A stretch of DNA of 64,000 nt from Pseudomonas anuradhapurensis (lineage in GTDB: Bacteria > Pseudomonadota > Gammaproteobacteria > Pseudomonadales > Pseudomonadaceae): positions 3,731,001 through 3,795,000 of the forward strand of contig NZ_CP077097.1 in assembly GCF_014269225.2 (NCBI RefSeq). The letters are read 5' to 3'. The notes under the pieces were generated by a model. That model saw only the letters and a program-made list of their open reading frames with translations, had not been told where the DNA came from and ran no database searches. The position numbers and the translations under genes are program-made. Of this stretch, positions 7,666 to 10,429 are shown piece by piece (positions within the stretch are counted from its first letter, which is position 1; every line of letters starts with the position of its first letter).

Positions 7666-8493
7666 TTACTTGGCCTGGTAGATGATCCCCGGGCTACATT
7701 GGACCATCTGGTAATGGTCCGGCAGCCCGTTCAGCGCCTCGGAGGCACCGAGGAACAGGTAGCCACCCGGCTTCAGGGTACTGTGAATGCGCAGCAGGAT
7801 GTCCTTCTTGACCTGCGCCGAGAAGTAGATCAGCACGTTGCGGCAGAACACCACGTCGAACTTGCCCAGGCTGGCATAGCTGTCGAGCAGGTTGAACGAG
7901 CGGAACTCGACACGGCTGCGAATTGCCGGCTTGACCGCCCAGCGCCCCGGCCCCTTGGGGTCGAAGTAGCGCTGCAGGCGCTCCTGGGACAGGCCGCGGG
8001 CAATCGCCAGGCTGTCGTACTCGCCGGTCTTGCAGTTGGTCAGCATGCTGCCGGACAGGTCAGTGGCGACGATCTGCGCGCCCATCTTCAACTGGCCAAG
8101 GTTGCCACGCTCGAACTCGTCGATGGCCATCGAGATGGAATACGGCTCCTGCCCCGACGAACAGGCCGCCGACCACATGCGCAGGCGCTGCCCAGGGTTG
8201 TTGCGGATGAACTCCGGAATCACCTTGTTCTTCAGCACTTCGAACGGGTAGGTATCGCGAAACCACAGGGTCTCGTTGGTGGTCATGGCATCGACCACCT
8301 GCTCGCGCAAGCCACCTCGCGGCTGGGCCTGGATGCGCTGTACCAGCTCGCCCAGGCTCTTGATGCCCTGTTGTTCCATCAGCTTGTTGAGACGGCTGGA
8401 AACCAGGTACTGCTTATTCTCCCCCAGCAGGATGCCACAGGCTTTCTCCAGGAAGACCCGGAACTGTTCGAAATCCAAATTACCCGTAGACAC
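7666..8493 (-). CDS. cheR: CheR, chemoreceptor glutamate methyltransferase
   Basis: CheR transfers methyl groups from S-adenosylmethionine to glutamates of chemoreceptors, setting adaptation. The 275-residue protein has the N-terminal helical CheR domain and a SAM-binding catalytic domain with MWSAACSSGQEPYS (near residue 110) and the FDVVFCRNVLIYF motif. The start is GTG at 8493 with a GAGGCGG ribosome site. It lies downstream of cheV, from which it is probably transcribed. The arrangement matches the P. putida locus whose CheR is the chemotaxis methyltransferase among several paralogues. Confidence 0.95.
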   Translation of the reverse strand: MSTGNLDFEQFRVFLEKACGILLGENKQYLVSSRLNKLMEQQGIKSLGELVQRIQAQPRGGLREQVVDAMTTNETLWFRDTYPFEVLKNKVIPEFIRNNPGQRLRMWSAACSSGQEPYSISMAIDEFERGNLGQLKMGAQIVATDLSGSMLTNCKTGEYDSLAIARGLSQERLQRYFDPKGPGRWAVKPAIRSRVEFRSFNLLDSYASLGKFDVVFCRNVLIYFSAQVKKDILLRIHSTLKPGGYLFLGASEALNGLPDHYQMVQCSPGIIYQAK

Positions 8494-8544: not shown

Positions 8545-9474
8545 TCAATGCGCTGCCTTGATCCGGTCGACCACCCGCTGGGCCAGGTCGTCCGGCTTGA
8601 ACTTGGCCAGGAAGTCATCGGCCCCGACCTTCTTGACCATTGCCTGGTTGAACACCCCGGAAAGCGAAGTATGCAGGCAGATATGCAATTTTTGCATGCG
8701 CGGATCGCTGCGAATCTCTGCGGTCAGCGTGTAGCCGTCCATTTCCGGCATTTCAATGTCCGAGATCATCATCAGGAACTCTTCTTCCGGCTTCTTGCCT
8801 TCGTCCACCAGCTGACGCAGATAGTTCAAGGCCTGGCGACCGTCATTGAGCGCCACCACCTCGACCCCCACGGTCTGCAGGCAACGGCTGACCTGCTTGC
8901 GCGCCACCGATGAATCGTCGACGGTGAGCACCCGCAACAGCACGGCCTTGTCCTGCACCTCGGCATCGACCACCCCGGCCGACACCGACTCGGACGACGG
9001 TGCCACTTCGGCCAGCACCTTTTCCACGTCGATGATCTCGACCATGCGGTTGTCCACCCGGGTGACGGCGGTCAGGTAGTGATCGCGGCCGGTGCCCTTG
9101 GGTGGCGGATGGATTTCTTCCCAGTTCATGTTGACGATGCGTTCCACCGAGTGCACCAGGAAGCCCTGGGTCTTGGTGTTGTACTCGGTAATGATCACGA
9201 AGCTGTTGCGCGTGTCTTCCTGCAGCGGCCGCAGCCCGGTGGCCATCGACAGGTCGAGGATCGGGATGGTCGCCCCGCGAATGTTGGCAACGCCGCGCAC
9301 CACCGGGTGCGCCTTGGGCAGCAGGGTCAGCGCCGGGCATTGCAGCACTTCCCTGACCTTGAACACGTTGATGCCGTAAAGCTGCTCGCCATTGAGGCGG
9401 AACAGCAGCAGTTCCAGGCGGTTCTGCCCTACCAGCTGGGTGCGCTGGTTGACCGAATCCATAACACCTGCCAT
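8545..9474 (-). CDS. cheV: CheV, CheW-receiver chemotaxis coupling protein
   Basis: CheV couples chemoreceptors to CheA and its phosphorylation tunes adaptation. Residues ~1-165 form a CheW-like domain (RLELLLFRLNGEQLYGINVFK; VRGVANIRGATIPILDL, given as fragments). Residues ~185-309 form a receiver domain with the DD pair in LTVDDSSVARK and the phospho-acceptor aspartate in ISDIEMPEMDG. I chose ATG at 9474 because GAGGAG lies 7 bases upstream; the frame is open to 9510 without a ribosome site. It heads the cheVR unit, with a σ28-like promoter about 46 bases upstream. Confidence 0.95.
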   Translation of the reverse strand: MAGVMDSVNQRTQLVGQNRLELLLFRLNGEQLYGINVFKVREVLQCPALTLLPKAHPVVRGVANIRGATIPILDLSMATGLRPLQEDTRNSFVIITEYNTKTQGFLVHSVERIVNMNWEEIHPPPKGTGRDHYLTAVTRVDNRMVEIIDVEKVLAEVAPSSESVSAGVVDAEVQDKAVLLRVLTVDDSSVARKQVSRCLQTVGVEVVALNDGRQALNYLRQLVDEGKKPEEEFLMMISDIEMPEMDGYTLTAEIRSDPRMQKLHICLHTSLSGVFNQAMVKKVGADDFLAKFKPDDLAQRVVDRIKAAH

Positions 9475-9519
9475 GCCAGACTCCTCTACATTTAAGCCTT
9501 TTGTTGCCACTCAGATAGC

Positions 9520-9546
9520 GAGTCGGCACGGGCTTTGCTTTTTTGA
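9520..9546 (-). promoter_or_regulatory. σ28 (FliA)-like promoter for cheVR
   Basis: Minus strand: TCAA, 15 bases, GCCGACTC. The E. coli-type consensus is TAAA-N15-GCCGATAA, so the −10 core GCCGA and the spacing fit exactly. It is placed to start a transcript near 9513, about 38 bases before cheV. cheVR is reported as a FliA-dependent late unit in P. aeruginosa. It overlaps a σ54-like site on the other strand. Confidence 0.6.
9524..9539 (+). promoter_or_regulatory. σ54-like promoter for flgA
   Basis: CGGCAC-GGGCT-TTGCT on the plus strand has GG and GC exactly 10 bases apart and differs from TGGCAC-N5-TTGCT at one position. The predicted transcription start (near 9550) is only 2 bases before the first good ATG of flgA, so either the mRNA is nearly leaderless or translation starts lower. 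That spacing lowers confidence. Confidence 0.5.
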
Positions 9547-9551
9547 GCGTC

Positions 9552-10304
9552 ATGTACACGAAAACGACATTTTCCCGACGATTGACGCGCCTGCTGACTG
9601 GCTCGCTGGCCATGCTCTGCCTGCTGGTGCCCGGCGTTCGCACGCTGGCGGACGCGTTTACCTTGCCTGAACAGCTTATCGGTGTCACCCAAGGGTTTCT
9701 TGAATTCAGCGTCGAAGATTACCTGGCCACCACCCAGACTGCCGGCCGCTACGAAATCCAGGTCAACCCGCTGGACCCGCGCCTGCGCATGCCGCTGTGC
9801 AGCCAGCAGCTGGACGCCTCGCTGGAAAGCCCGGCGCAACCGCTGGGCCGCGTTACGGTGAAGGTGCGTTGCGACAGTGCAGCGCCGTGGACCGTGTTCG
9901 TACCGGCCACCGTGCGGCTGTTCCGCGAGGTGGTGGTGATGACCCGCCCGCTCAAGCGCGACAACGTGGTAGGCGAAGGCGACGTGGCCCTGCGTGAACG
10001 CGATGTCGGCACGCTGGGGCAAGGCTTCCTGACCGAACTGGACCAGGCGGTCGGCATGAAGATGCTGCGCCCGACGGTGATCGACCAAGTGCTCACCCCA
10101 CAACACCTGGAACAGGCCGAGGTGGTGCGCAAGGGCGACCACGTGGTGATCATCGCGCGCAGCGGCAGCCTGAGCGTACGCATGCCCGGCGAAGCGCTGA
10201 GCAAGGGCGGCCTGAGCGAACAGATCCGGGTGCGCAACCTCAATTCCAAACGGGTAGTCAAGGCCAGGGTCACCGGCCCAGGCCAGGTCGAGGTCAGTAT
10301 GTAG
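9552..10304 (+). CDS. flgA: FlgA, P-ring assembly chaperone
   Basis: FlgA is the periplasmic chaperone that helps FlgI form the P ring. The protein (250 residues from ATG 9552) has a basic, hydrophobic signal peptide (RRLTRLL then LAMLCLLVPG) cut near residue 35. A C-terminal SAF domain follows, with VVMTRPLKRDNVVGEGDV and the beta-clip end VKARVTGPGQVEVSM. An upstream TTG at 9543 is in frame but would lie inside the promoter. It is divergent from cheV, and flgMN lies downstream. Confidence 0.92.
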   Translation: MYTKTTFSRRLTRLLTGSLAMLCLLVPGVRTLADAFTLPEQLIGVTQGFLEFSVEDYLATTQTAGRYEIQVNPLDPRLRMPLCSQQLDASLESPAQPLGRVTVKVRCDSAAPWTVFVPATVRLFREVVVMTRPLKRDNVVGEGDVALRERDVGTLGQGFLTELDQAVGMKMLRPTVIDQVLTPQHLEQAEVVRKGDHVVIIARSGSLSVRMPGEALSKGGLSEQIRVRNLNSKRVVKARVTGPGQVEVSM

Positions 10305-10402: not shown

Positions 10403-10429
10403 TAAAGTTTCTTTCGGGTTGGCCGAAAA
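10403..10429 (+). promoter_or_regulatory. σ28 (FliA) promoter for flgMN
   Basis: TAAAGTTT, 11 bases, GCCGAAAA: the −35 box is a complete match to TAAAGTTT and the −10 differs from GCCGATAA at one base, with the correct spacing. It lies 37 bases before flgM. flgM transcription by its own target σ28 is known in enteric bacteria and Pseudomonas. Confidence 0.88.

Follow-up and report, generated by a model that had tools for sequence, protein, structure and literature searches.

In Pseudomonas anuradhapurensis, the divergent genes cheV and flgA, separated by a gap of 77 bases, are probably served by promoters whose transcripts cross: flgA would be fired by σ54 with FleQ from a promoter in the gap, and cheV, together with cheR, by FliA (σ28) from an antisense site inside the flgA coding sequence. 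The confidence expressed here covers that architecture and not a lowering of flgA late in flagellar assembly. The window, meaning the whole stretch of DNA that was analysed, comprises 64,000 nucleotides of a 5.39 Mb genome whose flgA is closest to those of Pseudomonas putida group members. An earlier sequence-only reading had placed both promoters in one 27-bp stretch of the gap, at 9520–9546; the letters of that stretch, GAGTCGGCACGGGCTTTGCTTTTTTGA, and its coordinates proved correct when the window was re-read. The features concerned, in window coordinates, are as follows.

7666–8493, minus strand: cheR, which follows cheV on the same strand (open reading frame, identity by eye)
8545–9474, minus strand: cheV coding sequence, ATG at 9474, start MAGVMD, with the ribosome-binding site AGAGGAG at 9481–9487
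9475–9668, minus strand: predicted 5' leader of the cheV-cheR mRNA, from the σ28 site, antisense to the 5' end of flgA
9520–9546, minus strand: σ28-like site TCAA-N15-GCCGACTC, 8/12, probably a look-alike
9524–9539, plus strand: σ54 promoter of flgA, CGGCACGGGCTTTGCT, from family conservation and published σ54/FleQ dependence, predicted start at about 9550
9552–10304, plus strand: flgA coding sequence, ATG at 9552
9565–9579, plus strand: element conserved at the DNA level, CGACATTTTCCCGAC (flgA codons 5–10), from codon forms, perhaps a downstream FleQ site
9676–9703, minus strand: candidate σ28 (FliA) promoter for cheV, TCAAGAAA-N12-ACCGATAA, 12/12, inside flgA and antisense to it

A σ28 motif on the antisense strand of flgA

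Scored against a σ28 consensus of 12 bases (TMAAG-N15/16-CCGATAA), TCAAGAAA-N12-ACCGATAA at 9703→9676 is the sole 12/12 match among 127,940 window positions. It begins 130 bp further into flgA than the 27-bp site, and the 286 nt upstream of cheV hold no other σ28 site above 9/12. Of 398 family genomes, 300 carry the exact pattern, almost all of them in a single copy, against two matches seen for the reversed control; it is absent from the other 98, over half of which belong to a single genus (g15); in the loci fetched from g15 and from the genera g8 and g11, the site takes the forms GTCGATAA or TCAAGATA. At the level of loci, all 257 members of the family have a σ28 site that scores 11/12 or better at 16-nt spacing, its first base lying 195–348 nt from the cheV ATG (median 230). 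These 257 loci consist of 208 (80 from a flgA similarity search, further fetched loci and the window) and 49 further loci of the same family; they were fetched from part of the genomes listed and contain repeats (the window and L081, L258 and L277, some genomes from two collections), and L139, L140 and L170, which are without a divergent cheV, were left out.

The motif is held constant beyond what the protein requires. TCAAG and CGATAA are invariant in 249/249 flgA sequences, and the first C of CCGATAA is kept in 244 of them. In a codon-by-codon comparison of 183 representatives below 93% identity, codons 42, 43, 49 and 50 (Leu, Ile, Phe, Leu), which read on the minus strand as the σ28 motif, each show a single codon form wherever the residue is kept, CTT accounting for only 13% of the Leu codons in the rest of flgA. 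A tree was made from 222 distinct flgA genes, with the motif codons left out and after removal of L081 (which equals the window) and of identical sequences; on it, the four codon third positions within the motif show no change at all, against a mean of 45.4, a median of 47 and a minimum of 5 changes at 66 other columns with a conserved amino acid. Codon 51 lies just beyond the −35, and its third position changed 27 times; that of codon 44, which precedes CCGATAA on the minus strand, changed 6 times, by G/A alternation only. What is found at 9676–9703 is thus a consensus −35 and −10 at a spacing of 15–16 nt under constraint beyond the protein, and the site, strand, spacing and constraint are established at the level of sequence; that FliA would use the site, and that the site would feed cheV-cheR, is strongly indicated.

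The spacing itself counts somewhat against the proposed architecture, the FliA sites recognised by eye near flgM, fliC, fliS and cheA having 15 nt where the internal site has 16. A 16-nt spacing is also found upstream of two genes that appear by eye to encode a chemoreceptor and a GGDEF/EAL-type protein. The site upstream of flgM is a near-consensus one (window 10403–10428, TAAAGTTT-N11-GCCGAAAA) and agrees with the FliA-dependent PflgM of the literature (PMC6093933). A second 12/12 match, with 15-nt spacing, lies just before the window (L327, genome position 3730484), upstream of a gene read as flgK, and in L216 a cheV paralogue at another place in the genome is preceded by the σ28-type site TCAAG-N15-CCGATA.

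The σ54 promoter of flgA and a proposed crossing transcript

The σ54 promoter that the sequence-only reading had assigned to flgA is borne out, both by conservation and by dependence on σ54 and FleQ in P. putida. The element CGGCACGGGCTTTGCT has one mismatch to TGGCACG-N4-TTGCW; by sequence alone such elements are not above chance in the window, where the pattern with up to two mismatches gives 12 matches against 17.9 expected. GGCA-N6-TTGC is nonetheless found in 208/208 cheV/flgA loci, nearly all of them from Pseudomonas, with a preceding C in 205, and the element in 253/257 cheV/flgA loci of Pseudomonadaceae; the four without a σ54 match (L270, L271, L274 and L276) were left out of the σ54 counts only. 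At 9524–9539, GG and GC are correctly spaced, in near-consensus and conserved surroundings. In P. putida, PflgA is 2–3 fold σN-dependent and FleQ activates it directly, in E. coli (PMC5026340); RT-PCR results suggested that transcription from a σ54 promoter upstream of flgA reads through into flgM-flgN-flgZ (PMC6093933), and a FleQ ChIP-seq table includes flgA and cheV-3 (PMC6120874). The σ54 half of the arrangement is therefore already known biology, the P. putida promoter being the same in gene order, dependence and read-through into flgMN-flgZ (PMC6093933, PMC5026340), although the text covered from the P. putida flgA work discusses neither a start at the AUG nor an opposing promoter inside flgA. 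Two further observations concern this element and its gene: TAGCAGG is conserved just upstream of the σ54 −24 in one genus group (L112, L115–L138 and others), and the flgA of L113 (G034) is split into two matches with stop codons, which points either to a disrupted gene or to a fault in the assembly.

Counted 12 nt on from the −12 C (9538), transcription would begin at about 9550, only 2 nt short of the ATG at 9552, a point that the sequence-only reading had raised as a caveat. The position is right and is conserved: an in-frame flgA ATG lies 12 or 13 nt past the σ54 −12 C in 249/253 family loci, the exceptions being L260, L267, L272 and L273. For flgB, flgG, fleS, fliE and fliL, identified by eye in the same genome, the next start lies 48–60 nt past the σ54 element, as against 12 for flgA. 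Throughout the family, this promoter is thus predicted to yield a flgA mRNA with little or no leader.

In the proposed architecture, σ54 and FleQ would fire flgA from 9524–9539, with an mRNA that begins at the AUG or 1–3 nt before it, and the 27-bp stretch would serve solely as σ54 promoter. FliA would fire the late cheV-cheR unit on the opposite strand from 9703→9676, with a start at about 9668, and the resulting leader of about 195 nt would extend back through the 5'-most ~119 nt of flgA, past the start codon and across the σ54 promoter of that gene. Simple scans of 9440–9760 found no minus-strand terminator-like site, a σ70-type scan of the same interval found no promoter, and folding of the predicted cheV leader gave no gain (z 0.28). 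That cheV is a FliA target, as the sequence-only reading had supposed, holds in P. putida, where PcheV3 is 2–3 fold FliA-dependent and partly σN-dependent; the fusion is given as an intergenic clone with its limits unstated (PMC5026340). The only partial FliA dependence of PcheV3 and the description of its clone as intergenic (PMC5026340) count against the architecture, as do the 98 of 398 genomes without the exact pattern and the order-level outgroups, in which a site is found in just 8/18 loci, with 3/18 on the control strand.

Whether the crossing matters for flgA is a separate question. Early expression of flgA and late expression of cheV had been read as mutually exclusive; this idea survives in the form of a σ28 transcript that would cross the σ54 promoter and the flgA start, and is not supported as an overlap of two promoters within 27 bp. 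Such early/late antagonism by crossing geometry is plausible from the arrangement of the sites, and use of the internal site might lower flgA late in assembly, by passage of polymerase over waiting σ54 complexes or by antisense pairing. The chances are evenly balanced, however, that the architecture is right and the crossing of the flgA promoter is an accident of position without regulatory consequence. In a fliA mutant of P. putida, PflgA rises 2-fold, as antagonism would have it, but the rise is shared by PflgB (PMC5026340), and most loci from other orders of the class place the cheV σ28 site to the cheV side of the σ54 element; the shared rise and the position in other orders favour an accident of position, whereas the retention of the arrangement in 257/257 family loci, although the class uses the conventional position elsewhere, speaks against it. 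Because PflgB behaves like PflgA and the limits of the PcheV3 clone are unstated, a regulatory effect of the crossing on flgA is given at most even odds. The fullest version, in which flgA throughout Pseudomonadaceae is turned off by design when FliA transcribes cheV-cheR from within it, is possible but less likely than not: once FlgM leaves and FliA is free, polymerase would sweep waiting σ54 complexes off the flgA promoter, the cheV leader would pair with the 5' end of the leaderless flgA mRNA, and both synthesis of the P-ring chaperone and σ54 read-through into flgM would end.

It is unlikely that the internal site gives rise to an antisense flgA RNA of its own while cheV has another promoter. 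There are precedents in E. coli, where the antisense RNA from one intragenic FliA site does not extend beyond hypD and no transcript is detectable for most such sites (PMC4183435). Against a separate RNA stand the simple scan, which found no terminator-like site on the minus strand from the promoter to cheV, the lack of any other σ28 site above 9/12 in the 286 nt upstream of cheV, and the presence of the cheV start 195–348 nt away in all 257 loci.

The 27-bp stretch and the frozen codons of flgA

Very unlikely is the original proposal that a σ28 polymerase starts cheV within the 27-bp stretch and excludes the σ54 polymerase by direct overlap. The σ28-like site there scores 8/12, which is chance level, scores of at least 8 occurring in the window at 6.3 per kb and strand, with 1.57 expected per 250 nt. 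The pattern YGGCACGNNNNTTGCW does not stand out in the genome, with four matches against three for the reversed control. TCAA-N15-GCCGA is present in 83/208 loci and speaks for the proposal, but the −10 reads otherwise elsewhere, for example GCCGTTTA in 31 loci or GCCGCCTG in 28 loci that have no −35. Taking the best of spacings 14–16, the score in the same register across 253 family loci is 3–7 in 128, 8 in 97, 9 in 27 and 10 in 1. At 9520–9546 there is thus neither an above-chance match to the consensus nor conservation: much of the genus Pseudomonas has a degenerate σ28 motif here despite an unchanged gene order, while the σ54 element is conserved, and the loss of one motif under a retained gene order, which the sequence-only reading had itself named as refuting it, applies to the σ28 half.

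The 27-bp stretch is probably a σ28 look-alike, because the −24 GGC reads as GCC on the opposite strand and the A-run is the complement of the T-run that follows TTGC. The presence of TCAA-N15-GCCGA in the putida group was rejected as sufficient, since much of the pattern follows from the bases that σ54 requires and from the T-run downstream of the −12. Nor was the C that precedes GGCA in 205/208 loci accepted as proof of an overlapping σ28 −10: CGGCACG also occurs in the σ54 element upstream of fleS (by eye), and the C persists in groups that have no σ28 −35. Two narrower searches used patterns that miss the 16-nt spacing; TCAAG-N14-GCCGA gave no match in the window, and TMAA-N15-GCCGAWA had 14 genomic matches, as compared with 11 for its control.

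Some points do favour a start of cheV in the overlapping register. Two distant outgroups carry sites of 11/12 (L279) and 10/12 (L280) there, PflgA is up 2-fold without FliA, and the FliA-dependent PcheV3 is described as intergenic; if that clone ends short of the internal site, its dependence comes from elsewhere (PMC5026340). They are weighed against the 12/12 constrained site inside flgA, the σ54 requirement for the same bases and the rise of PflgB, also 2-fold, without FliA (PMC5026340). The chance-level 8/12 site at the 27-bp stretch was accordingly set aside as the promoter of cheV in favour of the codon-constrained one.

A second stretch of flgA, codons 5–10, is also frozen and spells CGACANTTTYCCGAC. 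Where the residue is kept, its codon forms are ACG (100%), ACA (87%) and CGA (92%), as against 26%, 11% and 7% elsewhere in flgA. In the outgroup L281, a string like CGACANTTTYCCGAC lies at about the same distance from the σ54 element, but in a non-coding leader. Compared with the FleQ consensus, the element is a weak match in the window (9/13, shuffle P 0.08), and the outgroup mean of 8.65 against 7.53 in single-base shuffles is suggestive only; that it is a downstream FleQ site may be offered as a guess. Synonymous constraint alone names no cause, and the frozen codons 5–9 show that flgA has more than one such stretch, but it is extremely improbable that codons 42–50 are frozen for a reason other than σ28, such as mRNA structure or flgA translation, given that the frozen third positions fall exactly within TCAAG and CCGATAA, that codon 51 just outside varies freely, and that TCAAG-N13-17-CCGATA has 12 matches in the genome against 5 for the control.

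Relatives, known systems and consequences

At the level of the class, a σ28 site of at least 10/12 is found on the cheV strand in 16/18 cheV/flgA loci and on the other strand in 0/18 (11 of 29 loci were dropped as being without cheV), and cheV is therefore widely a σ28 gene by this measure. The σ28 site is on the cheV side of σ54 in 15/16 loci with a σ54 element found, L333 being the exception; among those 15, the best site scores 9/12 in L350 and L359, and in L353 the cheV-side site ties with one on the flgA side. In order-level outgroups (9 of 27 loci dropped as being without a divergent cheV), 8/18 loci have a site that scores 10/12 or more, as compared with 3/18 on the control strand and a mean of 0.64 and a maximum of 4 in single-base shuffles, and each of these eight sites either overlaps σ54 or is on its flgA side. 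L279 and L280 have theirs in exactly the overlapping register first proposed for the window, and that arrangement may therefore exist elsewhere. In the simplest history, the cheV σ28 promoter would have moved from a back-to-back position across the σ54 element toward flgA. The back-to-back arrangement of other orders shares the sigma factors and the divergent genes with that of Pseudomonadaceae, in which the σ28 site lies inside flgA.

Excludons are divergent genes of which one has a long leader antisense to its neighbour, as in a flagellar example from Listeria. The cheV-flgA locus would resemble them in a predicted leader antisense to the divergent gene and in two units of opposite timing. 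It differs in the shortness of the overlap, only about 119 nt as predicted from promoter positions, and in that the partner is a σ54 gene whose predicted start is at its AUG. Promoters inside genes are known for FliA itself: 30 of 52 FliA sites in E. coli lie within genes, including the motA promoter within flhC and an antisense one in hypD, some of them driving a neighbour (PMC4183435). In contrast to those described for E. coli, the flgA-internal site is antisense, would drive a divergent flagellar neighbour and is synonymously frozen across a family. Intragenic σ28 promoters and antisense leaders are thus known, whereas a literature search found no family-wide, synonymously frozen antisense σ28 promoter in flgA and no description of a flgA-internal cheV promoter, an earlier description in P. 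putida flagellar-operon work being possible (10.1111/1462-2920.15857).

For work on these bacteria, the place at which a cheV promoter is to be mapped or cloned would shift, and fusions that end at the intergenic region would miss the internal promoter. For the family, the locus would present a promoter embedded in coding sequence under strong selection, with no synonymous change in 222 distinct flgA genes on whose opposite strand it lies, and a functional overlap would link early and late flagellar assembly in cis.
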